A program made the translations under genes and the position numbers. This document shows positions 11,275 through 32,961 of a DNA stretch of 33,355 nucleotides, one piece after another (position 1 is the stretch's first letter; the number at the start of each line of letters is the position of its first letter). The DNA lies in NCBI RefSeq assembly GCF_016650035.1, contig NZ_JAENWM010000039.1, positions 1 through 33,355 on the forward strand, written 5' to 3'. The notes under the pieces were generated by a model that was given only the letters and a program-made list of their open reading frames with translations, was not told the DNA's origin and did not search any database. Source of the DNA: Clostridium sp. (GTDB lineage: Bacteria > Bacillota > Clostridia > Clostridiales > Clostridiaceae).

Positions 11275-11901
11275 ATGGATTTTAATAATTTTCAAAATAT
11301 GATAAACAAGATAAGTGGTGTTATTAGTACAAAAATAATACAACAAGACAATAATATTCAAGAATTGCATATACTTGCTAATAACTTAAGAGGTCCAAAG
11401 CAAATAGTTAGAGATATTGAGTCTATTCTTTTGACGTCTTTTGATTATAGAATTGATAGAAAAGTTATTAGTATTGCACAAATTGAAACAGATGAGTATG
11501 ATCCCATTAGAAGAATAAAGTTTGGGGGTATTTCCTTAGATACGCAAGGAAATATGTTAGAGTGTGAAGTTAACCTTCTTTATGAAGGAGAAGAATTTTT
11601 TGTGAAGCAAGTAGGAATTAAAACTGTAGGAAATAGAAAAAAAATAGTAGCTAAAGCTACCATTGAAGCTGTAGAAAAAATTCTTGGACAAGCATATGTA
11701 TTTGATATACAAGAGGTAATTAGTATTACTAATAAAAATATAACCTTTGTATCTGTACTAGTAAATATGGTTATAAATGAATCAGAAGACACTATGGTAG
11801 GGTCTGCAATTGTAAAAGATGATATATATGAAGCTATCGTAAAAGCTACCCTATCTGCTATAAATAGAAGAGTGCAAAAAACGAATTTTAACAACATTTA
11901 G
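11275..11901 (+). CDS. Uncharacterised 208-aa protein with internal duplication
   Basis: I cannot assign a function. The N-terminal third contains a conserved-looking IQELHILANNLRGPKQIVRDIES...IDRKVISIAQ block, which I recall from hypothetical proteins of many Firmicutes. The C-terminal two thirds appear to be a tandem duplication. Residues ~96-138 (ECEVNLLYEGE...VAKATIEAVEKIL) align with ~157-200 (FVSVLVNMVINES...VKATLSAINRRV): each has a strand-rich part ending in a helix with the pattern [AV]KAT-x2-A[VI]. No transmembrane segment or signal peptide is seen, so it is probably cytoplasmic. GACGAGGCG precedes the ATG. It lies upstream of the peptide/HD-GYP genes on the same strand and may be functionally linked to them. 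Confidence 0.75.
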   Translation: MDFNNFQNMINKISGVISTKIIQQDNNIQELHILANNLRGPKQIVRDIESILLTSFDYRIDRKVISIAQIETDEYDPIRRIKFGGISLDTQGNMLECEVNLLYEGEEFFVKQVGIKTVGNRKKIVAKATIEAVEKILGQAYVFDIQEVISITNKNITFVSVLVNMVINESEDTMVGSAIVKDDIYEAIVKATLSAINRRVQKTNFNNI

Positions 11902-12027
11902 AGTTGTTAAAAAGCCACTAAGTGGCTTATGAAATTGCTTTAAGGGCCGATGCCGATACCATATTTTTTGAAAAAATAAGTCATGTGATCATTATTTAGA
12001 TTTTTACCTTAGCGGAGAGAAGTTATG

Positions 12028-12049
12028 ATAGGTTATAGCGTAGCCCTAT
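12028..12049 (+). ncRNA. Bulged hairpin within the enclosed segment
   Basis: ATAGGTTA (12028-12035), loop TAGCG, TAGCCCTAT (12041-12049) form eight pairs (one G-U) with one bulged C, about 12 bases before the GAGAGGGGG ribosome site of the small peptide. Confidence 0.4.
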
Positions 12050-12078
12050 TAATTTAAATCGAGAGGGGGATTTTAATA

Positions 12079-12159
12079 ATGAAAAAATTAACTACAATTT
12101 TATTAGCTATATTAGCACTTGCAATAGCTGGAGGATCAGCAGTTACTTGGATTTTTTAG
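12079..12159 (+). CDS. 26-aa hydrophobic small peptide
   Basis: The peptide MKKLTTILLAILALAIAGGSAVTWIF is a Lys-Lys start followed by a single hydrophobic helix, so it should be membrane-associated. A strong GAGAGGGGG ribosome site lies 9 bases before the ATG, and third-codon positions are A/T-rich as in the neighbours, so translation is plausible. The N-terminus is reminiscent of AgrD-type cyclic lactone pro-peptides. However, there is no Cys (only a Ser in GGSAVTWIF), no acidic C-terminal tail and no AgrB nearby, so that assignment is weak. It may be a small regulatory membrane peptide acting on the adjacent membrane HD-GYP protein, or a leader peptide of the inverted-repeat region that encloses it. 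Confidence 0.6.
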   Translation: MKKLTTILLAILALAIAGGSAVTWIF

Positions 12160-12199
12160 TTTAAGGGGCATCGGCCTTTAAATATACAGGAGGATAAAA

Positions 12200-13459
12200 A
12201 TGAAAAAACTACCATTGAAGGTTAAAATATATTTCATATCCATATATTTAATAACAGTAATATGTATTTTTTATTCTGTTTATATTAAAATTTTAAATGT
12301 TACACCTATTAAATACATTGATGGAATGTTTTTCATTATATTAGTTGCTATCACTGAAAGCGTCTCAGTTGCTTTTCAGAATATGTCTTTTAGCACAAGC
12401 TTTGCAATACAATTAGCATCTTACATATTGTTCGGACCATATATAACTTTATTTGTGGTTATTTTAGGATATGCTGTTAGGGTATTAAAAGTTAAAGATG
12501 GTTATAAACATATATTTAATACACCTATTTATGGTACTTTATATAATTGTTGTATTTTGGTTATATCTGTTTTATCTAGTAATTATATTTATTTTCAATA
12601 TGGAGGGACATTTTCCATTGATAAGATTTCAAATAATGTATTTCAAATAATTATGTTTTGCTTGGTGTTTTTAACTGCAAACGCTGTAATAATATCAAGC
12701 TTATCATCTTTAATGACTAATAAAAATTTTATTTATGCATGTATTTCTAATATAAAATATATGATTTTAAATATTTTAGTTATGGCACCTTTTGGTATAT
12801 TATTAGCCTATGTATTTGATTTATATAAATATGGTGGTGTAATACTTGTATTATTTCCTATATTACTAGCGAGATACACTTTCTCTTTATATATTCAATC
12901 AAAATCTCAATATCTCCAAACCGTAGATGCACTTATGCTTGCAATGGAGGCAAGGGATAAATACACAGAAGGACATTCACAAAGAGTGGCTGAACTCTCT
13001 TCTAGCATTGCTAAAGAATTAAAGTATAACGATTGGAAAATTGAACGGTTAAATATGGCAGCACTACTCCATGACGTTGGGAAGATAGGAATTGATGATT
13101 ATATTTTAAACAAACCTGGTAAGCTAACAGCTGAAGAGTTTGATGCCATAAAAACACATCCACTCATAGGCTACAACATTCTAAAGGATATTAAAAATCT
13201 TCAAAATATACTGCCTATTATAAGAAATCATCATGAACGATATGATGGAAAAGGGTACCCAGATGGTAAAATGGTCGAAGAGTTAAGCCTTGATGTTTTT
13301 ATTGTTCAACTGGCAGATTCTATAGATGCTATGACTACAGATAGACCTTATAGAAAAGCTCTAAATCATGAAATGGTTATAGAAGAAGTTGAAAAATGTT
13401 CGGGAAGTCAGTTTCATCCAAAGGTAGTTGAGGCGTATTTTAAAATGCTAGAAAAATAA
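12200..13459 (+). CDS. Membrane-anchored HD-GYP domain phosphodiesterase
   Basis: Residues ~1-235 form a multi-spanning membrane domain with about 6-7 hydrophobic segments. Residues ~240-419 are an HD-GYP domain with H259, LLHDVGKIGI (H291/D292), THPLIGYNIL (H320), HHERYDGKGYPDG (344-356) and LADSIDAMTTDRPYRKA (D373). All metal ligands and the GYP triad are present, so it should hydrolyse cyclic di-GMP or a related dinucleotide; the membrane part is presumably the sensor. AGGAGG lies six bases upstream of the ATG, immediately after the right arm of the inverted repeat, so that structure could affect its translation. The next gene follows closely. The specific signal and nucleotide cannot be read. 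Confidence 0.92.
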   Translation: MKKLPLKVKIYFISIYLITVICIFYSVYIKILNVTPIKYIDGMFFIILVAITESVSVAFQNMSFSTSFAIQLASYILFGPYITLFVVILGYAVRVLKVKDGYKHIFNTPIYGTLYNCCILVISVLSSNYIYFQYGGTFSIDKISNNVFQIIMFCLVFLTANAVIISSLSSLMTNKNFIYACISNIKYMILNILVMAPFGILLAYVFDLYKYGGVILVLFPILLARYTFSLYIQSKSQYLQTVDALMLAMEARDKYTEGHSQRVAELSSSIAKELKYNDWKIERLNMAALLHDVGKIGIDDYILNKPGKLTAEEFDAIKTHPLIGYNILKDIKNLQNILPIIRNHHERYDGKGYPDGKMVEELSLDVFIVQLADSIDAMTTDRPYRKALNHEMVIEEVEKCSGSQFHPKVVEAYFKMLEK

Positions 13460-13481: not shown

Positions 13482-14015
13482 ATGTTTATTGAGGCGTTAA
13501 TTTTTGCAATTATTATAGGGTACATATTAAAGGGAAAAATAAGGAATTTAGAAAATGTGGATTTAAATAGAGCATATCTTATTTTCATATCTTTCTTTAT
13601 AGAGCTTTTTATTGTTATATCAATAAGAAATGGATTTTTTAATATAGGCATACTTACATATATATTAGATTTTATCATGTATATTTTATTAGTGATTTTT
13701 ATTTATTTTAACAGGAAAGATAAATTTATCGTACTTATGGGAGTAGGATTTTTATTGAATGCTACTGCAATTTTCTTAAATGGAGGGTCTATGCCAGTCA
13801 GTACTAAAGCAGCAGAGGCTGCTGGTATTACTCTTAATGTAACTAAAGAAGGACTTTATACATTAATAAATGAAAATACTAAATTATGGTTTTTAGGAGA
13901 TATTATTCCTCTTACTTTTTTAAGGAATTTTGCTATAAGTATAGGTGATATTATTACAGTGGTAGGATTAATGTTATTTGTAATTACTGGAATGAAGAAG
14001 ACAGCTAAAAGTTAG
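13482..14015 (+). CDS. DUF5317-type integral membrane protein
   Basis: This 177-residue protein has about five hydrophobic segments and a central conserved-looking LNGGSMPVSTKAAEAAG loop, the hallmark I associate with the DUF5317 family, which often sits beside HD-GYP genes. Function is unknown. An in-frame GTG at 13470 is part of the ribosome site; AAGGTGAGG (13467-13475) is well spaced from the ATG at 13482, so that is the start. It begins 22 bases after the HD-GYP stop and is surely co-transcribed. It may be a partner of the HD-GYP membrane domain, by inference from linkage only. Confidence 0.82.
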   Translation: MFIEALIFAIIIGYILKGKIRNLENVDLNRAYLIFISFFIELFIVISIRNGFFNIGILTYILDFIMYILLVIFIYFNRKDKFIVLMGVGFLLNATAIFLNGGSMPVSTKAAEAAGITLNVTKEGLYTLINENTKLWFLGDIIPLTFLRNFAISIGDIITVVGLMLFVITGMKKTAKS

Positions 14016-14195: not shown

Positions 14196-14408
14196 ATGAA
14201 GAAAAAAATATATATTGATGGAATGAGTTGCAGTCATTGTGTAAGTCATGTAAAGGAAGCTCTATTAGACCTTGGTGCTATAAAAGTGAAAGTTGACTTA
14301 GAAGAGAAGGTTGCAATGGCAGAGTTTGATGATGAGGTAAGTGATAATGACATTACTGACGCAATTGAAGAAGTAGGATATGAAGTTACTGAAATAGAAG
14401 AAGATTAA
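14196..14408 (+). CDS. copZ: Heavy-metal-associated (CopZ-like) metallochaperone
   Basis: This 70-aa single HMA domain (ferredoxin-like fold) carries the metal-binding GMSCSHC motif at residues 9-15, a size and layout normal for copper chaperones that hand Cu(I) to a P-type ATPase. AAAGGGGAG precedes the ATG. It stands alone: no copA or csoR is in the window, so metal specificity (Cu versus other soft metals) is inferred from the family. Confidence 0.85.
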   Translation: MKKKIYIDGMSCSHCVSHVKEALLDLGAIKVKVDLEEKVAMAEFDDEVSDNDITDAIEEVGYEVTEIEED

Positions 14409-18877: not shown

Positions 18878-20233
18878 ATGAGTATTGTAAATTCATCCAA
18901 AGATAATGGTGGTATTTTGTATAAGATCGATGATAAACCACCATTACATATATCAATTTTACTTGCTTTTCAGCACATAATGGCAGCATTCGGGGGCATT
19001 GTAGCAGTACCGTTAATAATTGGGGGAGCTTTAGGATTACCAGGGGAAGACATTGCATTTTTAGTAAGTGCTTCAATATTTGCAGCAGGTATAGCAACTT
19101 TTATTCAAGCTAGAGGGATTGGTCCTGTAGGGGCTAGATTGCCATGCGTTATGGGAACTGATTTTACATTTGTTGGGCCATCTTTAGCTGTTGGATCTGC
19201 TCTTGGATTACCAGGAATATTTGGAGCAACGATTATGGGGTCCTTCATTGAAATCGTTTTAAGTCGTTTTATTAAGCCTTTAAGAAAATTTTTTCCACCA
19301 ATTGTAACAGGGACAGTTGTTATGTTAATTGGTCTTACTTTATTACCCGTAGCAATAGATTGGTCTGCTGGTGGATTTGGTGCTAAAGACTATGGTAGCA
19401 TAAAAAATGTAAGTATAGCGTTTTCAGTAATGATTACAATTACATTACTAAACAGATACGGTAAAGGACTTGTTTCTTCCGCATCAGTTATCATTGGGTT
19501 AATATTTGGTTATATAATATGCTTTCCACTCGGAATGCTTGATTTACCACAAATTACAAATGCTAGCTGGATGGCATTTCCATCGCCTTTTAAATATGGT
19601 ATTACTTTTAAGTTCAGTGCATTTGTTGCATTTGCTATAGCTTATTTAGTAACAACGGTTGAGACGGTAGGATGTCTTATGGCTGTTGGTGAAGCAGCGG
19701 GTAAAGATTTAACATCAGAAGATCTATCAAAAGGTATACTTGCTGATGGAGTTGGATCACTTATAGCAGGGTGTATTAATGCTGGACCTAATACATCCTT
19801 TTCACAAAATGTTGGACTTATACCAATTACTAGAGTTGCAAGTAAATCTGTAGTTGCTCTTGCAGGAATACTCTTAATGATATTAGGTATATTTCCTAAA
19901 TTTGGAGCACTCGTTTCTATTATGCCAGCACCAGTTTTAGGTGGTGCAGGTATCATAATGTTTGGTATGGTTGTATCAGCAGGAATCAAGACAATTCAAA
20001 AGGTTAATCTTAATAACAGAAACATGCTTATTTTAGCTATTTCACTGGGCATAGGTCTAGGTGTTACTGTAAGACCTGATTTTCTAAATAGCATGCCTTC
20101 AGCTATTAAAAGTTTTTTTTCTTCAGGTATTAGTGCAGGTACAGTAGTAGCTTTATTACTTAACGTAATATTAAAAGAGGAGACCCCTTTTAATATTGAT
20201 GCTAAGGTAGATTCTACAACAATTGGACAATAA
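18878..20233 (+). CDS. NCS2-family nucleobase permease (xanthine/urate type)
   Basis: This 451-aa polytopic membrane protein belongs to the nucleobase:cation symporter-2 family. Typical features are FQHIMAAFGGIVAVPLII at the first helix, GARLPCVMGTDFTFVGPSL, and the family signature near residue 310, read here as SQNVGLIPITRVASKSV. The QNVG version is the one I associate with xanthine/urate permeases rather than uracil carriers. It imports the substrate by proton symport. GGGAGG is well spaced before the ATG. As first gene after the regulated promoter, ~37 bases from adenine deaminase, it supplies purine bases to the downstream enzymes. The exact base is inferred. Confidence 0.9.
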   Translation: MSIVNSSKDNGGILYKIDDKPPLHISILLAFQHIMAAFGGIVAVPLIIGGALGLPGEDIAFLVSASIFAAGIATFIQARGIGPVGARLPCVMGTDFTFVGPSLAVGSALGLPGIFGATIMGSFIEIVLSRFIKPLRKFFPPIVTGTVVMLIGLTLLPVAIDWSAGGFGAKDYGSIKNVSIAFSVMITITLLNRYGKGLVSSASVIIGLIFGYIICFPLGMLDLPQITNASWMAFPSPFKYGITFKFSAFVAFAIAYLVTTVETVGCLMAVGEAAGKDLTSEDLSKGILADGVGSLIAGCINAGPNTSFSQNVGLIPITRVASKSVVALAGILLMILGIFPKFGALVSIMPAPVLGGAGIIMFGMVVSAGIKTIQKVNLNNRNMLILAISLGIGLGVTVRPDFLNSMPSAIKSFFSSGISAGTVVALLLNVILKEETPFNIDAKVDSTTIGQ

Positions 20234-20270
20234 TAAATATAAAAAGATATAAGTATGGAGGCATATTAAT

Positions 20271-21995
20271 ATGAAATCCAGTAAAACTAAAAATTTAATT
20301 CAAATTGCTACAAGTAGAAAAAAAGCAGATTTAGTTATTGAAAATTGTAATGTTGTTAATGTTTTTTCTCAAGAAATTATATATGGTAAATTAGCTATTA
20401 GTGATGGTGTATTTATTGGTATTGGTGATTATGAAGGCACAGAGGTAATTGATGGTGAAGGGAGATATATAGTTCCTGGGTTAATAGATTCTCATGTGCA
20501 TATTGAGTCATCAATGGGTTCACCATATCAATTTGCAAGAGCAGTCTTACCAAGAGGAACCACAACGGTTATCTCTGATTGCCACGAAATAGCTAATGTT
20601 AAGGGCCTTTCTGGAATTAAATATATGATTGAGTCTAGTGAAAATCTACCACTTGATGTATATATTATGTTACCATCCTGCGTTCCAGCTACCGCCTTTG
20701 AAACATCTGGGGCGATACTTGAGGCAAAAGATTTAGAAGAACTTATGCAACATGAAAGAGTCCTAGGTCTTGGAGAACTTATGAATTATCAAGGAGTTGT
20801 TTTTACAGATGAAGGCATCCTTAAAAAACTTGAACTTACTGATGATTACTGCAAAATAGTAGATGGGCATGGACCTATTATTAAAGAAAAAGAGTTAAAT
20901 GCTTATTCTTTAGCGGGAGTTAAAACAGATCACGAATGTAGCAACCATAAAGAGGTATTGGATAGACTTAGAAATGGTATTTATGTTGCAATAAGAGAAG
21001 GCTCGGCAGCAAAGAATCTATTAGATTTAGTTGGAGCAGTAAATCCCTTTAATGAGCGAAGATTTACCTTTTGCACAGATGATAGGCATCCTACGGATAT
21101 CTTAAAAGAAGGGCACATAGACAATAACATTAGACTTGCTATAAGAGGTGGTGTGAGCCCTATTACTGCAATTAGAATGGCAACACTTAATTCGGCAGAA
21201 TGTTATAACCTTAAAAAACTTGGAGCTATTGCTCCGGGGTATATAGCAGATTTTATAATAGTTGATAATTTATCAGATTTTAATGTGCTAAAAACATTTA
21301 AAAAAGGTAAACAAATAAAAGATGATTGGTATAAAGATATAAAGGAAGATAAGAAACTTTTAGAAACCGTATCTAACAGTGTTAATATAAAAGACTTTTC
21401 AATGGATGATTTAAAGTTAAAAGTTACATCGAACACTGCAAAAGTTATTAAAATTATGGATCATAGTCTTTTTACTGAGAATGTAACTAGGACAGTAAAA
21501 TCAGATGGAAACGGATTTTATATATATGATGAAGCAGTTGATATACTACCGATTTATGTATTTGAAAGACATAACGGTACGGGGAATATTGGTAAGGGTT
21601 TAATTGAAGGATATGGTCTTAAAAATGGTGCAATTGCATCAACTATAGCGCATGATTCCCATAACTTAATAGTAATAGGTGATAATCCTACAAATATTAA
21701 AATAGCTGTAGAAAAGATAATAGAAATTGGTGGAGGTCTTGTTATTGTTGTTGACGGTGAGGTGAAGGGATGCTTACCGCTAGATATTGCAGGTATAATG
21801 TCTTCAGAGGATTTAGAAACGGTATCAAAAGGCCATGAAAAACTTAATAAAATTGCTATGGAAGAACTTAACATTAATGAAAGTGTTAATGCTTTTATGA
21901 CTTTAGCTTTTATGGCATTACCGGTTATTCCTGAACTGAAAATTACCGATAGAGGACTCTTTGATGTAATAAAATTTCAGCATACTAATTTATAA
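20271..21995 (+). CDS. ade: Adenine deaminase
   Basis: This is an amidohydrolase-superfamily metalloenzyme converting adenine to hypoxanthine and ammonia. It has 574 aa, normal for the Ade/AdeC type. Visible: the N-terminal composite beta domain, GLIDSHVHIESSM with metal ligands H75/H77, DCHEIANV, VDGHGP, TDHEC, TDDRHPTDIL, and the C-terminal adenine-deaminase domain (~res. 410-574) with GLKNGAIASTIAHDSHNLIVIG and the product-like motif GGGLVIVVDG. ATGGAGG lies upstream of the ATG. It stands between the permease and 8-oxoguanine deaminase, and the hypoxanthine formed would be oxidised by the xanthine dehydrogenase encoded downstream. Confidence 0.95.
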   Translation: MKSSKTKNLIQIATSRKKADLVIENCNVVNVFSQEIIYGKLAISDGVFIGIGDYEGTEVIDGEGRYIVPGLIDSHVHIESSMGSPYQFARAVLPRGTTTVISDCHEIANVKGLSGIKYMIESSENLPLDVYIMLPSCVPATAFETSGAILEAKDLEELMQHERVLGLGELMNYQGVVFTDEGILKKLELTDDYCKIVDGHGPIIKEKELNAYSLAGVKTDHECSNHKEVLDRLRNGIYVAIREGSAAKNLLDLVGAVNPFNERRFTFCTDDRHPTDILKEGHIDNNIRLAIRGGVSPITAIRMATLNSAECYNLKKLGAIAPGYIADFIIVDNLSDFNVLKTFKKGKQIKDDWYKDIKEDKKLLETVSNSVNIKDFSMDDLKLKVTSNTAKVIKIMDHSLFTENVTRTVKSDGNGFYIYDEAVDILPIYVFERHNGTGNIGKGLIEGYGLKNGAIASTIAHDSHNLIVIGDNPTNIKIAVEKIIEIGGGLVIVVDGEVKGCLPLDIAGIMSSEDLETVSKGHEKLNKIAMEELNINESVNAFMTLAFMALPVIPELKITDRGLFDVIKFQHTNL

Positions 21996-22006
21996 AAAAA
22001 AAGTTA

Positions 22007-22034
22007 TTGATCCACTTTTTTCGGGTGATATACT
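22007..22034 (+). promoter_or_regulatory. Possible internal promoter before the 8-oxoguanine deaminase gene
   Basis: TTGATC (22007-22012), 16-base spacer, TATACT (22029-22034), ~18 bases before the start codon. A leader this short would leave little 5' UTR, so this is tentative. Confidence 0.35.
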
Positions 22035-22052
22035 AATTTTAAGGAGATACTT

Positions 22053-23411
22053 ATGAAGAATTCAATCCTTTTAAAGAACATTAAATATCTTGTAACTTGT
22101 GATGATGAGGACAATGTATTTCAAAATATAAACTTATTTATTGAAAATGGTGAAATAAAATATATTGGTAGTGAAATTAAATCAGCCGATGAGATTATAG
22201 ATGCAACAAATATGGTGGTGTATCCAGGACTTATAAATACACACCATCACCTTTATCAATACTTTAGCAGAAATATTCCAGAAGTTCAAAATATGGAACT
22301 ATTTCCATGGTTGAAATATTTATATGAGATTTGGAAAAATGTAAACAGTGATGTTATTATGTACAGTTCCCTTTGTGGAATGGGTGAACTTTTAAAGACC
22401 GGGTGTACAACATGCTTTGACCACCACTATGTATTTCCTAAAAACCAAAGTGGTCTAATAGAAGCACAGTTTGAGGCTGCACAAAGACTTGGAATTAGAA
22501 TGTATGCATCCAGAGGAAGTATGTCTCTAAGCATTAAGGATGGGGGACTTCCTCCAGATTCGGTAGTTCAAACTGTTGACGAGATTTTAAAAGACAGTGA
22601 GGCTTTGGTTAAAAAATTTCATGACAATAGTCAGTTCTCCATGAGGCAGGTTGCACTTGCTCCTTGTTCACCATTTAGTGTAACTGGAGATTTAATGCGT
22701 GAATCAGCAATACTTGCAAGAAAACTTGGGGTTAGACTCCACACACATCTTGCAGAAACATTGGATGAAGAAAAATTTACTATGCAAAAATTTAACATGC
22801 GCCCTCTTGAGTATATGGAGAGTTTGGGATGGCTTGGCTGCGATGTGTGGTTTGCACATGGTATTCATTTTAATGATGATGAGTTAAATTTACTTGCAAG
22901 AACTGGTACAGGCATTGCTCATTGTCCCATATCCAATATGAAATTGTCATCAGGAATTGCAAAGATTCCTCAAATGCTAAAGAGCAAAGTACCTGTTGGA
23001 CTTGCAGTTGATGGAAGCGCAAGCAACGATGGTTCAAATATGCTTGAAGAGATGAGAGTTGCATTTTTACTGCATAGATTAAACTCAGGTAAAAGTGCTC
23101 CCACAGCCTATGATATACTTAAAATGGCCACTAGAGGCAGTGCGAAGGTACTTGGACGCTCAGATATTGGTAAGTTATCTATTGGAATGGCAGGGGATTT
23201 GTTTATGATAAACCTTAACCGTCTAGAACTTTTAGGTGCAGATTTAGACCCTAAATCACTACTTAGTACTGTGGGGTTTAAGGGGAATGTTGATTATACC
23301 ATTGTAAATGGTGTAATTGTTGTAAAAAATGGTGAACTCGTAAATGTTGATGAAGAAAAGATCTATTATGAAAGTAATGTTGTTGCAAAGAAATTTAATA
23401 AAAATTCATGA
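22053..23411 (+). CDS. 8-oxoguanine deaminase (amidohydrolase)
   Basis: This is a 452-aa member of the amidohydrolase superfamily. Zinc motif H64/H66 is in NTHHHLYQ; further ligands are in RLHTHLAETLDEE and FAHGIHF, with the catalytic Asp in LAVDGSASNDGSNM. The FPWLKYLYEIW, DHHYVFP, RGSMSLS..DGGLPPDSVV and ALAPCSPFSV stretches match the 8-oxoguanine deaminase / hydroxydechloroatrazine-hydrolase branch (as I know it from Pseudomonas) rather than ordinary guanine deaminases. It would turn 8-oxoguanine into urate plus ammonia; guanine or isocytosine are alternative substrates. AAGGAG precedes the ATG. It is followed directly by xdhA, which fits delivery of its product to the dehydrogenase. Confidence 0.87.
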   Translation: MKNSILLKNIKYLVTCDDEDNVFQNINLFIENGEIKYIGSEIKSADEIIDATNMVVYPGLINTHHHLYQYFSRNIPEVQNMELFPWLKYLYEIWKNVNSDVIMYSSLCGMGELLKTGCTTCFDHHYVFPKNQSGLIEAQFEAAQRLGIRMYASRGSMSLSIKDGGLPPDSVVQTVDEILKDSEALVKKFHDNSQFSMRQVALAPCSPFSVTGDLMRESAILARKLGVRLHTHLAETLDEEKFTMQKFNMRPLEYMESLGWLGCDVWFAHGIHFNDDELNLLARTGTGIAHCPISNMKLSSGIAKIPQMLKSKVPVGLAVDGSASNDGSNMLEEMRVAFLLHRLNSGKSAPTAYDILKMATRGSAKVLGRSDIGKLSIGMAGDLFMINLNRLELLGADLDPKSLLSTVGFKGNVDYTIVNGVIVVKNGELVNVDEEKIYYESNVVAKKFNKNS

Positions 23412-23447
23412 TTGAAGTATTTTGATTACTATATAAGGAGGTACAAA

Positions 23448-25727
23448 ATGAGTATTGGAAAGAGTATTAAAAGAGTTGATGCTTTTGATAAAGTAACGGG
23501 ACGTGCGCAGTTTACAGATGATTTTAAGTTGAGTAACTGTCTTGTCGCGAAAGTTATGCATAGTACTATTGCAAATGGCCTTGTTAAGAGTATTGATGTT
23601 TCAGAAGCTATGAAACTTGAAGGGGTTATAAAAATTGTAACTTGTTTTGATGTTCCCCCTATCGGATTTCCAACAGCTGGGCATCCTTTTTCGCTGGACC
23701 CTGCTCACCAAGATATAGCAGACAGAAAACTGCTTAATCAAAGAGTTAGATATTATGGTGATGACATAGCAGCAGTAGTTGCTAAAGACAGTGTAACTGC
23801 AACAAGGGCCATTAACCTTATAAAAGTAGAATACGAAGAATATGAACCGATACTTTCTATTGATGCTGCACTAAAACAAGGAGCTAAAAGTATTCATGAG
23901 GAGTATCCAGATAATATTTTTGCGCATACAAGTTATGAAGTAGGCAATTATGACAATGCTATAAAAGAAGAAGGACTCGTTGTTTTTGAGGGAGAATACG
24001 AAACTCCAATGGTTAAGCACTGCCAACTTGAAAATCCAATTTCTTATGCTTATGCGGAGGGTAAAAGAATTGTTGTTGTTACATCAACTCAAATTCCTCA
24101 TATTGTAAGACGTGTAGTTGGGCAAGCTCTTGGTATTGAGTGGGGAAAAGTCAGAGTTATTAAACCTTATATAGGTGGAGGATTTGGTAATAAACAAGAG
24201 GTTCTTTACGAACCGCTAAATGCATATTTATGCAACGCTATTGGTGGCAGATGTGTTAAACTTGATTTGAGTAGGGAAGAGGATTTTGTGAGCACCCGTG
24301 TGCGTCATGCTATGAAAATTAAAATCAAAAGTTATGTGAGGCCAAATGGGCGGTTTGTTGCTAGAAAAGTAGTAGTATATGGTAATAAAGGGGCTTATGC
24401 ATCCCATGGACATAGTATAACAAGTAAAGCAGGTCACGCATTCAAACAAGTATATCAGAGTGAAGTTGCAACTAAAGGTGATATGTATTCAGTATTTACT
24501 AATATGCCATCATCTGGTGCTATGCGTGCTTATGGTATACCACAAATAACTTTTGCTATTGAATCCCATGTTGATGATATTGCAACTGAACTTAATTTAG
24601 ACAAGATTGAAATTAGAAAGCTTAATGCTATGAAATTGGGTTTTGTTGACAATCAAGTTAAATGCTATAGTAATGGCCTTGACGAATGTATTGAAAAGGG
24701 TAAAAAATATATAGACTGGGATAAGAAACTTAAAGAATACCAAAATCAAACAGGACCCATAAGACGCGGCGTGGGTATGGCAATATTTAGCTATGCAACG
24801 GGTGTTTATCCTATTTCACTGGAAACGGCAGCTTGTAGAATTGTGCTTAATCAAGATGGTTCAGTTCAACTTCAAATGGGTGCCACGGAAATAGGTCAAG
24901 GGGCAGATACCGTTTTTGGACAAATGGTAGCAGAGGTTCTTAGCATTCCATCGGAAAATGTACACACTGTATCAACGCAAGATACGGATATTACACCTTT
25001 TGATACAGGGGCTTATGCTTCCAGGCAATCTTATGTATCAGGGATGGCTGCTAAAAAGGCTGCTATGGAGATAAAAGAAAAAATAATAGAACATGCGAAT
25101 TTTATGTTGAAACTTCCTAAAGGAAACATTGAACTTAAAGATAATAATATTATAAATAAAGAAACTGGTGAAATTATAGCTTCACTTAAAGAAGTAGCTA
25201 TGCATGCACTTTATAATACTGAAAAATCAGTTCACATAACAGCAGATGTTACAAACCAATGTAAATCAAATTCCTTTTCTTTTGGATTATGTTTTGTTGA
25301 GGTTGAAGTTGATATTCCTGTAGGTAAAATTAAAGTGATTAATGTTATTAATGTCCACGATAGTGGTAAAATTCTTAATCCTAAGCTAGCGGCAGGACAG
25401 GTACATGGCGGTATGAGTATGAGTTTAGGTTATGGTTTGAGTGAACAGCTTTTATTTGATCCAAAGACAGGTAGAATGCTCAATGATAATTTACTAGATT
25501 ATAAACTTCCAACTATTATGGATACTCCACATTTGGAAGCACAATTTGCAGAAACCTATGATGTATCAGGGCCTTTTGGTAACAAGGCATTAGGAGAACC
25601 ACCTGCAATTCCGGTTGCACCTGCAATTAGAAATGCTGTGCTTAATGCTACAGGAGTTAAGTTTAATGTTGCTCCGTTAACACCACAAAGACTTGTAGAA
25701 AAATTTAAAGAGAGAAATTTAATATAA
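23448..25727 (+). CDS. xdhA: Xanthine dehydrogenase, molybdenum-binding subunit
   Basis: This is the catalytic Mo-cofactor subunit (759 aa) of a three-subunit xanthine dehydrogenase. It has GGGFGNKQE, GAMRAYGIPQ (Arg near the substrate), TEIGQGADTVFGQMVAEVL, DTGAYASRQSYVSG and GPFGNKALGEPPAIPVAPAI, whose Glu is the expected catalytic base. The frame opens with a TTG at 23412, but AAGGAGG at 23435-23441 points to the ATG at 23448, which also gives the usual IGKSIKRVDAFDKVTGRAQFTDD start. It forms an operon with xdhB (19-base gap) and xdhC (overlap). In anaerobes the enzyme may run both ways: hypoxanthine to xanthine, and urate to xanthine. Confidence 0.93.
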   Translation: MSIGKSIKRVDAFDKVTGRAQFTDDFKLSNCLVAKVMHSTIANGLVKSIDVSEAMKLEGVIKIVTCFDVPPIGFPTAGHPFSLDPAHQDIADRKLLNQRVRYYGDDIAAVVAKDSVTATRAINLIKVEYEEYEPILSIDAALKQGAKSIHEEYPDNIFAHTSYEVGNYDNAIKEEGLVVFEGEYETPMVKHCQLENPISYAYAEGKRIVVVTSTQIPHIVRRVVGQALGIEWGKVRVIKPYIGGGFGNKQEVLYEPLNAYLCNAIGGRCVKLDLSREEDFVSTRVRHAMKIKIKSYVRPNGRFVARKVVVYGNKGAYASHGHSITSKAGHAFKQVYQSEVATKGDMYSVFTNMPSSGAMRAYGIPQITFAIESHVDDIATELNLDKIEIRKLNAMKLGFVDNQVKCYSNGLDECIEKGKKYIDWDKKLKEYQNQTGPIRRGVGMAIFSYATGVYPISLETAACRIVLNQDGSVQLQMGATEIGQGADTVFGQMVAEVLSIPSENVHTVSTQDTDITPFDTGAYASRQSYVSGMAAKKAAMEIKEKIIEHANFMLKLPKGNIELKDNNIINKETGEIIASLKEVAMHALYNTEKSVHITADVTNQCKSNSFSFGLCFVEVEVDIPVGKIKVINVINVHDSGKILNPKLAAGQVHGGMSMSLGYGLSEQLLFDPKTGRMLNDNLLDYKLPTIMDTPHLEAQFAETYDVSGPFGNKALGEPPAIPVAPAIRNAVLNATGVKFNVAPLTPQRLVEKFKERNLI

Positions 25728-25746
25728 AAGTAGAGGTGGAATAATA

Positions 25747-26634
25747 ATGTATGATATTGAAAAAATATACCAGGCAACTTCAGTAAAGGATGCTATAAGT
25801 CATCTTGAACTGGAACCAAAATCTATAATTATTGCAGGTGGAAGTGACGTGCTTATAAGCATTCGTCATGGCAAGCTTGCTGGATGCTCTCTTGTAAGTA
25901 TTTTTGGACTGGATGAACTAAGAGGAGTAACTCTTGAGGAAGATGGTAGCATAAAGATAGGTTCACTTACAAGTTTTTCACACATAACTAAAAATGATAT
26001 TATCCAAAAATATATTCCAGTGTTAGGCGAAGCAGTTGATGAAATTGGAGGTCCACAATTAAGAAACATTGGAACAATTGGAGGGAATATTTCAAATGGT
26101 GTTACAAGTGCTGATAGTGCATCCACGTTATTTGCACTAAATGCTAAGCTCCAAATACAAGGACCTGATGGAGAAAGAGTTATTCCTATCTCAGAGTACT
26201 ACGCAGGGCCAGGAAAAGTTACTTTAAAAAATGCTGAAATACTTACGGCTATCTATATCACTAAAGATAATTATGAAAACTTTAGTGGTAATTACATTAA
26301 ATATGCTATGCGTAATGCAATGGATATTGCAACTCTTGGTTGTAGCGTAGTGTGTAAACTTAATGCACAAAAGGATAAGATAGAAGATGTACGTCTTGCC
26401 TACGGTGTTGCAGCTCCAATCCCTATGAGATGTTTCAAAGCTGAAGAAGCTATAAAGGAAATGGGTTTTTCTGATGAAATGTTTAATATTTTCGGTGAAA
26501 CAGCAAAGACTGAAGTGAGTCCTCGGACATCTTGGCGTGCATCTAAAGATTTCCGCCTTCAACTTGTAGGGGAACTCAGTAAAAGGGCTTTAAAGGAATG
26601 TATAAAAAAATGTGGAGGTGTAATCAATGGCTAA
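25747..26634 (+). CDS. xdhB: Xanthine dehydrogenase, FAD-binding subunit
   Basis: This 295-aa FAD subunit has the FAD motifs IIIAGGSDVLISIRHGKL (res. 28-45) and LRNIGTIGGNISNG (~101-114), followed by a CO-dehydrogenase-flavoprotein-type C-terminal domain (VRLAYGVAAPIPMRC...). It passes electrons from the [2Fe-2S] centres to NAD+. There is no inserted four-Cys cluster, which argues against 4-hydroxybenzoyl-CoA reductase. GAGGTGG precedes the ATG, and the stop overlaps xdhC by 8 bases. Confidence 0.92.
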   Translation: MYDIEKIYQATSVKDAISHLELEPKSIIIAGGSDVLISIRHGKLAGCSLVSIFGLDELRGVTLEEDGSIKIGSLTSFSHITKNDIIQKYIPVLGEAVDEIGGPQLRNIGTIGGNISNGVTSADSASTLFALNAKLQIQGPDGERVIPISEYYAGPGKVTLKNAEILTAIYITKDNYENFSGNYIKYAMRNAMDIATLGCSVVCKLNAQKDKIEDVRLAYGVAAPIPMRCFKAEEAIKEMGFSDEMFNIFGETAKTEVSPRTSWRASKDFRLQLVGELSKRALKECIKKCGGVING

Positions 26635-27121
26635 TAAGATTTTAAACTTCATAGTAAATGGTGAACCTACACAAATTATGATAGATGATAGAGATTCACT
26701 TACTGATGTTTTAAGAAATCAACTTAATCTTACAAGTGTTAAAAAAGGTTGTGAGGTTGGTGAATGTGGAGCTTGTACTGTTCTTATTAATGGTGAAGCC
26801 TACGATTCATGTATTTATCTTGCAATTTGGGCAGAAGGTAAAGAAATTCGTACAACTGAAGGACTCATGGATGCTGATGGTAATATATCGGATATTCAGG
26901 AAGCATTTATTGAGGAAGGTGCTGTGCAATGCGGTTTCTGTACCTGTGGATTTGTTATGTCATCCATCCCTATTCTAGAAGACGATAAAGAGTATACAAC
27001 CGAAGAGGTTAAAAAATCAATTTCTGGTAATCTATGCCGTTGCACTGGTTATGAAAATATATTAAATGCTGTAGAAAAAACTAAAGTGCATCGTTGTGAT
27101 TGCAATAAATCAAAACTATGA
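26627..27121 (+). CDS. xdhC: Xanthine dehydrogenase, [2Fe-2S] subunit
   Basis: This 164-aa two-cluster iron-sulfur subunit has plant-type [2Fe-2S] ligands C42, C47, C50 and C62, and helical-domain [2Fe-2S] ligands C102, C105, C137 and C139 (CGFCTCGF ... LCRCTGY). It links the Mo centre of XdhA to the flavin of XdhB. GGAGGTG lies inside the end of xdhB. The C-terminus adds HRCDCNK, a short Cys-containing tail of no known role. It is the last gene of the xdhABC set. Confidence 0.93.
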   Translation: MANKILNFIVNGEPTQIMIDDRDSLTDVLRNQLNLTSVKKGCEVGECGACTVLINGEAYDSCIYLAIWAEGKEIRTTEGLMDADGNISDIQEAFIEEGAVQCGFCTCGFVMSSIPILEDDKEYTTEEVKKSISGNLCRCTGYENILNAVEKTKVHRCDCNKSKL

Positions 27122-27147
27122 TAAAATAAAATAATGTTTTAAATTTC

Positions 27148-27172
27148 GCCCTATGACAATCCATAGGGCTTA
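27148..27172 (+). terminator. Hairpin between xdhC and the permease (partial terminator?)
   Basis: GCCCTATG (27148-27155) pairs with CATAGGGC (27162-27169) around a 6-base loop; only TTAATTAT follows. It may attenuate rather than stop readthrough into the permease gene. Confidence 0.5.
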
Positions 27173-27200
27173 ATTATAAAAAAATTGAGGGGGAACAAAG

Positions 27201-28550
27201 ATGGAGCGTTTTCAATTGAAAGAAAATGGAAGTGACGTCAAGAAAGAAGTTATTGGAGGGATAACCACATTTTTAACCATGGCATATATTATTGCAGTTA
27301 ATGCAAATATTTTAGGAGCTACAGGCATGGATATGGGTGCCATAGTAACAGTAACTTGTTTAACAGCAGGTTTTACTACAATAGCTATGGGTTTATATGC
27401 AAATCTTCCTTTTGCACTAGCGTCAGGAATGGGACTTAATGCATTCTTTGCTTTTAGTGTAGTAATAGGACAGAAAGTTCCTTGGCAAGTGGCGCTGGCA
27501 GCTGTATTTATTGAAGGTCTTATTTTTATTGTATTATCATTAACGAATGTTAGAGAAGCAGTAGTTAACGCTATACCAACAACTTTAAAATTGGCAGTTA
27601 CTGCAGGTATCGGACTTTTCATTGCATTTATTGGTTTGGTAGATGCTGGTATTGTAATTGCTAATCCAGACACAAAGGTAGCTATGGGTACTTTTAAAAG
27701 CCCTGCAGTACTAATCACAGTACTGGGAGTAATTGTAATAGTAGTATTGTCAAAGAAAAAAGTTAGAGGAGCTATATTATGGGGAATAGTTGCAAGTGCT
27801 GGAGCGGCTTGGATATATGCAATGATAGCACCAATAACAGCAGCAACTTATGGAATATACACTCCAAAAGGGATATTTAAACTTGAGTCAATGTCACCAA
27901 TTGCTGGTAAACTAGACTTTTCATATTTAAAAGATCCAGCTAAAATCATGCAATTTATTACAATATTATTAACATTTTTGTTTGTTGATTTTTTCGATAC
28001 TGTGGGAACTCTAGTAGGAGTTGCTTCAAAGGTTGGAATGGTTGATAAAGATGGTAAGGTTAAAAATGCTGGAAAGGCGCTACTAGTAGATGCCGTTGGT
28101 ACTACTGTGGGAGCGTTCCTTGGTACTTCAACTGTAACTACTTACGTAGAAAGCTCAGCGGGAGTTGCAGAAGGCGCTAGAACAGGACTTGCTTCTGTTG
28201 TAACAGGAATTTTGTTCTTAATAGCAATGTTTTTTTCACCATTATTTGTTGCAATACCAATGTGTGCAACTGCACCAGCACTCATTATTGTAGGATTTTT
28301 CATGATAGGGGGTATAACTAAGATAGATTTTAATGATTTCACTGAGGGAGTGCCTGCTTTCTTAACAATCATAATGATGCCACTTACTTATAGTATAGGA
28401 GACGGTTTAACAATTGGACTTCTTTCTTATGCTGTGTTAAACGGAATCAACAATTTATTTACTAAGGATCATAGCAAGAGAAAGAAAGTTTCAATTATAA
28501 TTTACATTTTGGCGATAATATTTATTGCTAAATTATATTTTACAGGCTAA
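27201..28550 (+). CDS. pbuG: Guanine/hypoxanthine permease (AzgA/PbuG family)
   Basis: This 449-aa polytopic permease is of the AzgA-like nucleobase branch. Diagnostic stretches: EVIGGITTFLTMAYIIAVNANIL at the N-terminus, LPFALASGMGLNAFFAF, TAGIGLFIAFIGLVDAGIV, FVDFFDTVGTLVGVASK and STVTTYVESSAGVAEGARTGLASV, which match guanine/hypoxanthine carriers. It imports hypoxanthine, guanine and possibly adenine by proton symport. GAGGGGG lies upstream of the ATG. Coming 79 bases after xdhC on the same strand, it likely belongs to the same purine regulon and complements the NCS2 xanthine/urate-type permease at the head of the cluster. Confidence 0.92.
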   Translation: MERFQLKENGSDVKKEVIGGITTFLTMAYIIAVNANILGATGMDMGAIVTVTCLTAGFTTIAMGLYANLPFALASGMGLNAFFAFSVVIGQKVPWQVALAAVFIEGLIFIVLSLTNVREAVVNAIPTTLKLAVTAGIGLFIAFIGLVDAGIVIANPDTKVAMGTFKSPAVLITVLGVIVIVVLSKKKVRGAILWGIVASAGAAWIYAMIAPITAATYGIYTPKGIFKLESMSPIAGKLDFSYLKDPAKIMQFITILLTFLFVDFFDTVGTLVGVASKVGMVDKDGKVKNAGKALLVDAVGTTVGAFLGTSTVTTYVESSAGVAEGARTGLASVVTGILFLIAMFFSPLFVAIPMCATAPALIIVGFFMIGGITKIDFNDFTEGVPAFLTIIMMPLTYSIGDGLTIGLLSYAVLNGINNLFTKDHSKRKKVSIIIYILAIIFIAKLYFTG

Positions 28551-28572
28551 AAATAATAGGATATTAGAAATG

Positions 28573-28613
28573 AAAAACAATTCGCTTTGTAAAAAAAGCA
28601 GATTGTTTTTTTT
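28573..28613 (+). terminator. Intrinsic terminator of pbuG
   Basis: AACAAT..GCTTT (28576-28588) pairs with AAAGC..ATTGTT (28595-28607), with a 2x2 internal loop, followed by a T-run to 28613. Confidence 0.8.
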
Positions 28614-28688
28614 ATTTCTCAGTAAATTTTTTGACGCTTTAATTTAATGCTTCAATAAATTAAATGTTTTCTCCTTGGGAATATACAA

Positions 28689-28757
28689 ATGAGGGTAATA
28701 ATAGTAGAGGATGATGAAATAAAAAGGAAAATTGTTAGAAACCCACAGTTTAAATAA
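28689..28757 (+). pseudogene. Response-regulator receiver-like N-terminal remnant
   Basis: The 22-codon frame MRVIIVEDDEIKRKIVRNPQ... resembles the first strand and acidic pocket (VEDDE) of a response-regulator receiver domain, then stops. Nothing recognisable follows in any frame. The ribosome site is poor. It is most likely debris of a lost regulator; chance similarity is possible over this short length. Confidence 0.35.
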
Positions 28758-28914
28758 GCTGATGAATTTATGTGGAACAATAAAATGATAAGCTGCATTT
28801 AAGTGCTACTTTAACAAAAGGTAAGGTTTTGAGTATAGATCAAGATGCTATTATCAGTTTATAGTGAAAAATTCTGAGATTAAATTCTAGAATTAGCACC
28901 TATAGCAAGAGTGA

Positions 28915-28943
28915 GCCCTCATACATTTCTATGATATGAGGGC
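28915..28943. repeat. 9-bp inverted repeat at the end of the permease pseudogene
   Basis: GCCCTCATA (28915-28923) and TATGAGGGC (28935-28943) are exact complements around an 11-base loop that includes the pseudogene stop. There is no T-run on either side, so it is not a standard terminator. It may mark the deletion endpoint of the permease gene. Confidence 0.5.
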
Positions 28944-29257
28944 ATTCTCACCAGTAATAGCAGCAAGGGTAGGAACATATGCAAAACTTACTCCCATAAT
29001 TACAGGGAGCCTTGAACCGATAACCTTGCCCAGGGGAAAAATTTGAATTAAAGTTGCTATACCAGCAAAAACAGTGAGGATTGTACAAGTAGAATTTTGT
29101 CAGCAGCAGTAAGATTTGCAACTCCAGCAATTATAAGAGCCGGTGTAACACACCCAACAATCATAGCAACAACGTGTTGAAGGCCTAAGGGTATAAATTC
29201 TTTCATTGAAGGTATACCATCATATTGAAATAATAAGGACTTTTGATTAGAACTCAT
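28929..29257 (-). pseudogene. Truncated, frameshifted NCS2 (xanthine/uracil-type) permease
   Basis: Reading down from an ATG at 29257 with GAGGAAGAG upstream gives MSSNQKSLLFQYDGIPSMKEFIPLGLQHVV...VGCVTPALIIAGV...DKILLVQSSLF, the start of an NCS2 permease. The frame then hits a stop. A one-base shift in a T-run near 29065-29072 restores AGIATLIQIFPLGKVIGSRLPVIMGVSFAYVPTLAAITG, the next conserved segment of the same family. After ~110 codons it ends at a TAG (28929) and the remaining ~75% of the protein is absent. The gene followed the second molybdenum hydroxylase operon on the same strand and presumably was its dedicated purine importer. It is distinct in sequence from the intact NCS2 permease at 18878. 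Confidence 0.85.
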
Positions 29258-29321
29258 AAAAAACTCTTCCTCTAATTTAACTTTTGTGAGCAACAAAAAT
29301 TGAAAATTCATTTCCGATTTT

Positions 29322-29344
29322 TGAAAGGTGACAGGCACCTTTCA
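29322..29344. repeat. Short REP-like palindrome
   Basis: TGAAAGGTG-ACAGG-CACCTTTCA: a perfect 9-bp stem with 5-base loop, G/C-richer than its surroundings, without a terminator T-run. I recall similar GGTG..CACC palindromes as dispersed REP-type repeats. Only one copy was noticed here. Confidence 0.5.
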
Positions 29345-29426
29345 GATATTAGTAGTGAAGCGGACAATATCTGTTGCTGATTTACAAGATCAGTTTGATT
29401 AGTATTCATATTAACAAAATAAGTTA

Positions 29427-31709: not shown

Positions 31710-31712
31710 TCC

Positions 31713-32171
31713 TTAGTCCTCCTTTGCAGCTTCTAAATATTTCTTAATTGCTCTTAGCTGACCCATATACCCTGTGCAACGGCATAAGTTTCCACACAAA
31801 TATTGCTTAATTGCGAGCTCAGTTGGGTTAACTAATTCGTTCTTCATAGCTAATACATTCATAATAAATCCAGGGCTACAGAAACCGCATTGTTCTGCTC
31901 CTTCATCTGCCATAAATGCACCAAACTCCTCTGCCTCCAACTGCATCCCTTCAATAGTTGTTACGTGTAATCCATTTGCTTTCATTACAAGAGTACTACA
32001 TGATAAAATAGGCTTTCCTTCTAGATGTACAGTACATAAACCACAGTTTGCAGTTTCGCATCCCCTTTTTACACTGTAAAATCCCTTACTTCTTAAATAA
32101 TCGATTAATAATGTATCTACTTGTATATCGTCTGCAAATATTTTATCGTTTATCCATAATTTAACTTTCAT
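31713..32171 (-). CDS. Second hydroxylase [2Fe-2S] subunit
   Basis: This 152-aa two-cluster subunit has C38, C43, C46, C58 (plant-type) and C95, C98, C130, C132 (CGFCSPGF ... LCRCTGY). All eight ligands are present. It transfers electrons between the Mo subunit downstream and the FAD subunit upstream. It overlaps the FAD gene by 11 bases; GGGAGG lies five bases before the ATG. Confidence 0.92.
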   Translation of the reverse strand: MKVKLWINDKIFADDIQVDTLLIDYLRSKGFYSVKRGCETANCGLCTVHLEGKPILSCSTLVMKANGLHVTTIEGMQLEAEEFGAFMADEGAEQCGFCSPGFIMNVLAMKNELVNPTELAIKQYLCGNLCRCTGYMGQLRAIKKYLEAAKED

Positions 32172-32961
32172 GAGTGCCTCCCATAATTTCTTCTATTCCT
32201 CTATTTATAAATACTCTAGCAAGAATTTGTCTATATTCTTTGCTACCCCTCATATTGCTTTGAAATTTCACTTCTTTCATTACATGTTCTACTAAAAAAT
32301 CAATTTCTTCTTTAGTTGGATTTTCACTAAGAATTATTCCAGTCTTATTTACTAATATTGCCTTTTGAGGCCGAGCACCTAATACTATTGTCCATTTATC
32401 TAAAGACTTTGAAATTGCAACAGTAAGAATTGGAATATCAGTAGCAGTGATTCTTTGTGTTAAATAAGATACTTTTCTTGGATCCTTCTTAATTATAATT
32501 CTTACTAAAATATCATTATCATATGACATATCTTTAAAAATTGATAACGGAATAATTCCGACATTATATAACTCTACATAAGTGTCTAATGCTAATAAAG
32601 ATGTTAAAATATCTGAAAACCCAAATCGGGAATATATACTTCCTCCGATAGTTGCACAATTTCTGAATTGTACTCCTACTATATGTACTAAAGATCTTGA
32701 TATAGCACCATTAAAATAAGAGTTTAATGATTTATTAACTTCCATATCCCTTAATGTACACATACAACCTATTTTAAAATACTCTTCATCTTCTTCAACC
32801 TTATCTAATCCTAATTTTGATAAATCAATAGCTGTTTGAATTTTACGTTCACCCATCTTAAGCCAAGCAATACCGCCTAGTACAACATTGTTCTTCTTTT
32901 GATTTAAATCATATGCTTGTGCTAACTCTTCTACTACTACATAATTTTTAATTGTAAACAA
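32161..32961 (-). CDS. Second hydroxylase FAD-binding subunit
   Basis: This 266-aa subunit is shorter than XdhB (295 aa). The first FAD motif is VVLGGIAWLKMG in place of AGGS/T, and the second is FRNCATIGGSIYSRFGFSD. A shortened C-terminal domain follows (WTIVLGARPQKA...). The start is TTG at 32961, eight bases after AGGAGG; there is no competing ATG. It is the first gene of the FAD - [2Fe-2S] - Mo order, different from the Mo - FAD - [2Fe-2S] order of xdhABC, again showing two independent lineages. It is co-transcribed with both following genes through overlaps. Confidence 0.88.
   Translation of the reverse strand: MFTIKNYVVVEELAQAYDLNQKKNNVVLGGIAWLKMGERKIQTAIDLSKLGLDKVEEDEEYFKIGCMCTLRDMEVNKSLNSYFNGAISRSLVHIVGVQFRNCATIGGSIYSRFGFSDILTSLLALDTYVELYNVGIIPLSIFKDMSYDNDILVRIIIKKDPRKVSYLTQRITATDIPILTVAISKSLDKWTIVLGARPQKAILVNKTGIILSENPTKEEIDFLVEHVMKEVKFQSNMRGSKEYRQILARVFINRGIEEIMGGTHES

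Follow-up and report, generated by a model that had tools for sequence, protein, structure and literature searches.

What is a long inverted repeat doing around a complete peptide gene, directly before the gene of a membrane HD-GYP protein? This arrangement lies in a 33,355-nt stretch of Clostridium sp. DNA (the window: NCBI RefSeq assembly GCF_016650035.1, contig NZ_JAENWM010000039.1, positions 1 to 33,355), where an earlier note had read it either as a structured RNA with a leader peptide inside, ahead of the HD-GYP and DUF5317 genes, or as a bifunctional small RNA. The conserved locus has the gene order UP, left arm of the outer stem (P1), hairpin with the ribosome site of the peptide, peptide gene, right arm of P1 and HD-GYP gene. 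The features in the window are as follows:

11275..11901, + strand: UP gene, 208 aa, putative sensor and RNA-binding regulator
11939..11954, + strand: left arm of the outer stem P1 (gapless helix search, comparison of loci)
12007..12069, + strand: core hairpin P2-P4, which includes the ribosome site of the peptide (R2 match, covariation)
12011..12017, + strand: AGCGGAG internal-loop motif (sequence; pentamer enrichment; lost with UP)
12028..12049, + strand: P4 hairpin with a UAGCGU loop motif at 12036-12041 (sequence; helix 98.2% paired)
12064..12069, + strand: peptide ribosome site AGGGGG, the 3′ strand of P2 (sequence, fold, covariation)
12079..12159, + strand: peptide gene, 26 codons, MKKLTTILLAILALAIAGGSAVTWIF (family conservation)
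12167..12182, + strand: right arm of the outer stem P1 (gapless helix search, comparison of loci)
starting at 12188, + strand: HD-GYP ribosome site AGGAGG (sequence)
12200..13459, + strand: gene of the membrane HD-GYP protein (conserved HD and GYP residues)
13482..14015, + strand: gene of the DUF5317 membrane protein (PF17248, E 8.1e-31)

The inverted repeat described in the earlier note was confirmed on the sequence. Its arms (11939-11954 and 12167-12182) are 16 nt long, stand 212 nt apart and form 15 Watson–Crick pairs and one G-U pair, which contradicts the word "perfect" that had also been applied to the stem. The unit enclosed by P1 measures 244 nt with the arms included, and both arms pair with each other in the fold of the 266-nt RNA (−65.6 kcal/mol, z −2.76); 0 of 200 shuffles were equally stable. 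Structure is indeed present inside the arms, in the form of one compound hairpin (12007-12069) where two smaller ones had been reported, and the 26-codon hydrophobic peptide was found between the arms as claimed, with its ORF at 12079-12159 and its ribosome site AGGGGG at 12064-12069. The HD-GYP ribosome site lies just past the right arm as had been noted, at a gap of 5 nt instead of about 7. The element is single-copy in the genome of the window and is therefore no dispersed repeat, an origin that would have spoken against the earlier note.

A small hairpin between UP and the left arm (AAGCCACTAAGTGGCTT, window 11913-11929) is recognisable in relatives within the genus, including the UP-less loci L007 and L008, and may therefore be part of the element in Clostridium. 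Elsewhere in the window, a short ORF downstream of DUF5317 (14196-14408), with GMSCSHC at its start, was read by eye as probably a heavy-metal-binding chaperone, and the region 18878-32961 as a purine-use cluster with permeases, deaminases and two xanthine-dehydrogenase-like gene sets.

A search with the UP protein retrieved 80 loci, 65 of which have an HD-GYP gene downstream. The peptide gene lies in between in all 65 (63 by pattern; those of L048 and L094 were added to the pattern list by eye), and the RNA model matches 61 of them. Three of the 15 UP loci without HD-GYP end at a contig edge and show the RNA; the other 12, all uncut, contain neither the peptide (0/12) nor the RNA element, one weak RNA match 2 kb off in L053 (E 1.7) being taken as chance. 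The first RNA model, built from eight sequences and run on 81 sources (568,775 bases), gave 49 matches, all on the operon strand: 46 directly 5′ of a called peptide, one 5′ of a peptide that is seen in the other contig copy (L048, L125), and two at contig ends (L054, L070). A second model, R2, was made from these 49 matches and run on 398 genomes of the phylum with strict filters, a run that missed the window's own copy. It matched 53 of the 398 genomes with exactly one copy each; UP lies upstream in 53 of 53, and the peptide and HD-GYP lie downstream in all 51 uncut loci.

Searching with an HD-GYP relative gave matches in 123 of the 398 genomes. The part of it that was inspected comprises 44 places with their upstream sequence, namely 40 upstream regions and four loci: UP is present in 38, all 38 with the peptide, both are absent in four uncut places, and two places are cut. 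One of the 40 regions, L253, comes from a genome that already had an RNA match and the rest come from genomes without one; L172 was excluded from the UP test because its contig stops within HD-GYP. This route adds 37 genomes and brings the number that have all three of UP, peptide and HD-GYP together to at least 89 of the 398 (the window's own included). Carriers include Clostridium, Caloramator, Fervidicella, Thermosediminibacter, Thermovorax and Dethiobacter, and the peptide was also identified in metagenome bins labelled Coriobacteriia, Chloroflexi and Armatimonadota, labels that may be wrong. Such comparison of sequences strongly supports the RNA element, the peptide and their linkage to the genes around them.

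Among 117 distinct peptides of 18-32 aa, 113 lack acidic residues, 113 contain a strongly hydrophobic stretch, 116 have a basic residue near the start and 115 an aromatic residue near the end; this set, like the motif counts and the 121-locus P1 test below, includes 34 of the 38 UP-bearing loci of the HD-GYP search (without L216, L228, L232 and L253) and none of the 23 loci L142-L164. The family consensus is about M[AK]xLxxxLxALxALVLAGGAx[FY][KR]W, and the peptides of L235, L242, L246, L248, L249 and L250 were read by eye. A dN/dS check had been proposed in the earlier note, and the pN/pS of 0.10-0.44 in five groups indicates that the peptide is constrained as a protein. The term "leader peptide" used there is too weak, because the amino-acid sequence is conserved over many families with a pN/pS well below 1. 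The window peptide and six relatives matched no Pfam or NCBIfam family at cut-off and no pheromone model. Attenuation by Trp codons was rejected because several peptides lack Trp. Peptides of 19-20 aa, in which the end is kept and the hydrophobic core is shortened, occur in L124, L127, L128 and L133 (and L145); in the first four, the outer stem is a G-run against a C-run. In L051 and L055, from bins labelled Armatimonadota, a lipobox-like Cys stands where most members have Gly (SLSCGAS, GLTCGAI).

In the alignment of 51 HD-GYP proteins, H291, D292, H344, G350, G352 and Y353 are invariant, and H345, E346 and P354 are nearly so. The window protein matches HD_5 (E 4e-31) and contains the HD pair and the HHExxDGxGYP residues; the gene product probably degrades a second messenger, which would place it in cyclic-di-GMP turnover. 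The N-terminal region matches MASE9 (PF20972) in L063, L064 and L071; that of the window protein had no such match. DUF5317 is a frequent, inconstant next gene, with a profile match in 15 of 23 stretches. Two tandem HD-GYP genes follow the peptide in L048, L062, L068, L080, L094, L106, L142, L148, L157, L163 and L164.

The peptide might be a pheromone that is exported and read by the membrane HD-GYP protein, with the RNA only setting its dose. The pheromones of the SHP/Rgg and NprX systems have a comparable length, a basic start and a hydrophobic core, and the present peptides share this build and have an aromatic residue near the end, an end that the 19-20-aa forms retain even with a shortened core; the neighbouring membrane enzyme, with its sensor-type N-terminal part, would suit a receptor. 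However, the tail of the peptide is short and variable, the window peptide and six relatives scored under every pheromone model cut-off (one relative reached 12.3 bits for NprX, far below the 75-bit cut-off), and neither UP nor HD-GYP is known to belong to the receptor family of these systems. We consider a pheromone unlikely, with a small but real chance of being right.

The hairpin ahead of the peptide matches R2 in the window with 28.9 bits (E 3.9e-4 over the bases searched), and in the window fold it pairs both the ribosome site and the start codon of the peptide. In the alignment of 68 distinct core sequences, which was fitted to the model and so favours pairing, and which includes one probable chance match (L053, E 1.7), 92.2% of the pair cells are standard and all 14 pairs have changed on both sides. 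Double-changed cells number 225 vs 63.2 in shuffles, the covariation score is 0.610 vs 0.186, and pairing falls to 38-57% when the partner columns are slid by one to three. Folded alone, L064 and L071 match the model hairpin and the window does so broadly; the lone folds of L079 and L097 lack it (z −1.69 and −0.94). In single-sequence folding of 55 loci, the peptide ribosome site was not significantly more hidden than that of HD-GYP (mean unpaired 0.23 vs 0.27, p 0.15). The core hairpin evidently varies, since R2 missed four of the 65 loci (L061, L072, L095 and L099) and the 37 genomes found by protein search. The three of these four loci that were folded (L061, L072 and L099) use other hairpins to pair the peptide ribosome site, which is consistent with control of translation as their common purpose.

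On inspection by eye, no part of the core is more constant than its unpaired loops, AGCGGAG and UAGCGGA. Of all pentamers upstream of the peptide, AGCGG shows the strongest enrichment (275 vs 15.6 expected, in the sample defined above). Several loci, such as L069 and L101, contain additional motif copies outside the hairpin. All 119 UP-bearing upstream regions that were examined (same sample) have AGCG[AGT] motifs ahead of the peptide. None of the three UP-less loci that retain the peptide, P1 and HD-GYP has them, and the genomes of these three lack UP throughout. Within the window's family, the motif occurs in 15 of 15 UP-bearing loci vs 0 of 3 UP-less loci (Fisher p 0.0012, kinship ignored), and the tree needs three changes, two of them forced by well-supported branches (two or three independent losses). 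The motif thus depends on the presence of the presumed binding protein, as in protein-binding leader RNAs, an observation made in only three UP-less loci.

The N-terminal domain of UP, which contains an invariant KQIVRDIE segment, resembles the C-terminal domain of CDF/ZnT proteins, and its C-terminal domain resembles the regulatory domain of LeuA/citramalate synthase. Different from these synthases (3f6h, 1sr9), UP lacks the synthase domain and has the CDF-like N-terminal domain in addition. The likeness is one of fold only: UP scored 20.2 bits against LeuA_dimer (PF08502), under the cut-off of 24.9 (13.4-19.6 in three relatives), and a sequence search against solved structures gave no significant match. 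dsRNA-binding proteins were among its Foldseek matches only with poor superposition, and we know of no LeuA-like domain that binds RNA. Twelve loci have UP without the peptide, the RNA or HD-GYP nearby (L053, L060, L075, L078, L091, L100, L102, L104 and L107-L110), and AGCG[AG] is not clearly enriched in them (10 vs 7.7 upstream, 11 vs 6.7 downstream); because peptide, RNA and clear enrichment are all missing there, UP must have another role and partner in these loci. We infer from the sequence comparisons that UP in the conserved operon is an RNA-binding sensor acting on the AGCGG-type loops; the earlier note had noticed neither these loops nor the involvement of the gene upstream.

The same loops could instead form the aptamer of a metabolite-binding riboswitch, in which the AGCGGAG/UAGCGGA hairpin would bind, for example, a cyclic dinucleotide and hide the peptide ribosome site, and UP would be a mere neighbour. 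Two things are consistent with this: the loops are conserved on a short hairpin that covaries and pairs a ribosome site, and the next gene is one of probable cyclic-di-GMP turnover. Yet the loops vanish in the three UP-less lineages in which stems, peptide and HD-GYP remain, and the motif copies outside the hairpin are as would be seen for repeated protein sites. The Rfam scan proposed in the earlier note matched no known family in the window; permissive scans of the elements of the window, L063 and L071 gave sub-threshold matches or nothing, and scans of six whole relatives found only tRNA and TPP, elsewhere than the element. A known riboswitch was rejected on the lack of a match within Rfam 15, and a riboswitch of any kind seems improbable to us.

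The outer stem was evaluated as the best gapless helix with a score threshold of 28, with swapped arms and shuffles as controls; a gapless search was chosen because a duplex search allowing bulges separated own from swapped arms poorly (means −38.1 and −28.7 kcal/mol, own arms seldom top-ranked). A helix of at least 28 was found in 55 of 64 loci (window included) vs 9.5% of swapped arms and 3.4% of shuffles, and in 17 of 21 additional loci vs 3% of shuffles. With Watson–Crick-only scoring, 96 of 121 loci (sample as above) reached 28 and 25 stayed below, vs 7.9% of the control. In some clades, the sequence of P1 has been wholly replaced with the pairing kept (e.g., GGGGGGGC/GCCCCCCC and TACCCAAACCTTTATTA/TAATACAGGTTTGGGTA); such compensatory changes in relatives answer the doubt, raised in the earlier note, that arm complementarity might not be conserved. 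Non-Watson–Crick positions in the 96 helices comprise 54 G-U, 19 A-C and 137 others. With G-U and A-C given equal score, the excess of G-U over A-C (p 5e-5, loci taken as independent) argues for selection on the sense-strand RNA rather than on DNA. Per-position pairing of 93-100%, calculated within helices selected for pairing and without L037, L082 and L106, which have no anchor, is no independent test. A convincing outer helix was not found in L208, L220 and L225, and that of L106 is doubtful. UP, peptide and HD-GYP are all there in L208 and L220, yet the outer stem is not convincing.

P1 is kept in the three UP-less loci and so persists in the absence of UP. Its right arm begins 7-16 nt past the peptide stop codon in 42 of 64 loci, and the HD-GYP start codon lies a median of 22 nt past P1 (55 of 64 loci with a called start). 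The possibility that P1 itself hides the HD-GYP ribosome site was rejected because the called sites stand 3′ of the right arm (55 of 64 loci). A terminator role is also conceivable for P1, whose left flank is rich in A and whose right flank is rich in U: ribosomes on the peptide gene would keep it open and allow HD-GYP transcription, a form of attenuation. The position of the right arm behind the stop codon would agree with this, and so would the T's that make up a median of five of the eight bases directly behind its G+C part (64 loci); but L050, L076 and similar loci have no T run, many T's are engaged in pairs with left-arm A's, the loops of usual terminators are far smaller than the ~200 nt here, and the conservation of amino acids goes beyond the need of a device that positions ribosomes. 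We regard attenuation as quite improbable.

A bifunctional or excised small RNA acting in trans, the second reading of the earlier note, could be imagined for a complete unit with its own coding sequence that is closed by P1 (244 nt in the window), but it is very improbable given one copy in each of 53 matching genomes and the same operon position and strand throughout the 51 uncut loci. A DNA-level role of the inverted arms that flank the segment, as an invertible segment, mobile element or operator, has next to no probability, the peptide strand being that of its neighbours in every locus examined, the element single-copy, G-U in excess over A-C in P1 and the inner hairpin covarying as RNA; an origin by DNA inversion, repeats or mobile elements was ruled out on orientation, copy number and the G-U excess. 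The first reading, a structured RNA with the peptide inside ahead of HD-GYP/DUF5317, is supported by the compensatory change and the linkage to HD-GYP. Similar to cis-regulatory structured RNAs, the element shows compensatory base-pair change in both the hairpin and P1 and a constant position before the genes.

Several known systems share parts of this design. In the TRAP/trp and PyrR/pyr leaders, a ligand-sensing protein binds short sites that are repeated or lie in loops, and the present leader likewise contains looped sites, for which UP is the putative binding protein; UP differs in resembling LeuA-regulatory and CDF C-terminal domains, and the target here is a peptide gene. Type I toxin mRNAs (hok, aapA1) contain a short hydrophobic ORF in an mRNA closed by 5′-3′ pairing, similar to the long-distance pairing around the present peptide, whereas the present element keeps its place in an operon with an enzyme gene across many families. 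A literature search at the level of abstracts and main texts found no account of the element, and the main texts of PMC8632094, PMC6429828 and PMC11109978 do not contain the terms "HD domain", "phosphodiesterase", "phosphohydrolase" or "isopropylmalate". Among the designs compared, and as far as its main text describes it, the closest published one is the odc1 motif RNA, in which the structure pairs the ribosome site and a conserved ORF of 11 aa precedes the main ORF (PMC8632094). The two share a conserved RNA that pairs a ribosome site and a conserved short ORF before the main ORF; odc1 differs in structure, genes and hosts, and its main-text description mentions no gene-enclosing long-range stem or paired binding protein (PMC8632094). 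The present peptide is 18-32 aa long and membrane-like, and the element departs from odc1 in having a long-range stem around the gene, a peptide that is conserved and membrane-like, and a protein linked to it. In kind, the element is an mRNA leader that is structured, contains an ORF and probably has a protein as its ligand.

On balance, we lean slightly towards a mechanism, built from sequence comparison, in which UP, as an RNA-binding sensor, controls translation of the peptide and the peptide works with the HD-GYP enzyme. The element itself is a single-copy, cis-acting control element of the mRNA, and the comparison shows that the long-range P1 closes a domain with the hairpin and the whole peptide gene inside. 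UP, with the fold of the ligand-sensing LeuA/citramalate synthase regulatory domain, would sense a small molecule and bind the AGCGG-type hairpin loops, which would decide whether the ribosome site of the peptide is hidden, either by repression or by activation. The peptide might then sit in the membrane and act on or with the membrane HD-GYP phosphodiesterase, so that cyclic-di-GMP is adjusted; to judge by gene order alone, it probably acts with HD-GYP in the membrane. P1 probably confines the fold of the translational unit, away from the ribosome site of HD-GYP, and couples the two genes. Tentatively, and with less confidence than in the mechanism as such, UP may be the founder of a family of RNA-binding proteins that sense a ligand and recognise AGCGG repeats; in a widespread, previously undescribed signalling module it would gate translation of a tiny membrane peptide enclosed in a closed RNA domain, and the peptide would set HD-GYP activity, a path from metabolite through RNA switch to cyclic-di-GMP.

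If this is true, these bacteria would turn a metabolite signal into a cyclic-di-GMP output by means of an RNA switch and a peptide that serves as a subunit or signal. The finding would add a structured RNA class without an Rfam entry, a peptide family absent from Pfam and NCBIfam, and likely a new family of RNA-binding proteins (UP) in the same operon, which more than one in five genomes of the phylum sample possess. Its mRNA architecture is unusual, with a long-range stem around a whole gene that shows compensatory change even after its sequence has been replaced. It bears on two open questions, how membrane HD-GYP enzymes are controlled and what role some orphan peptides of 20-30 residues may have.
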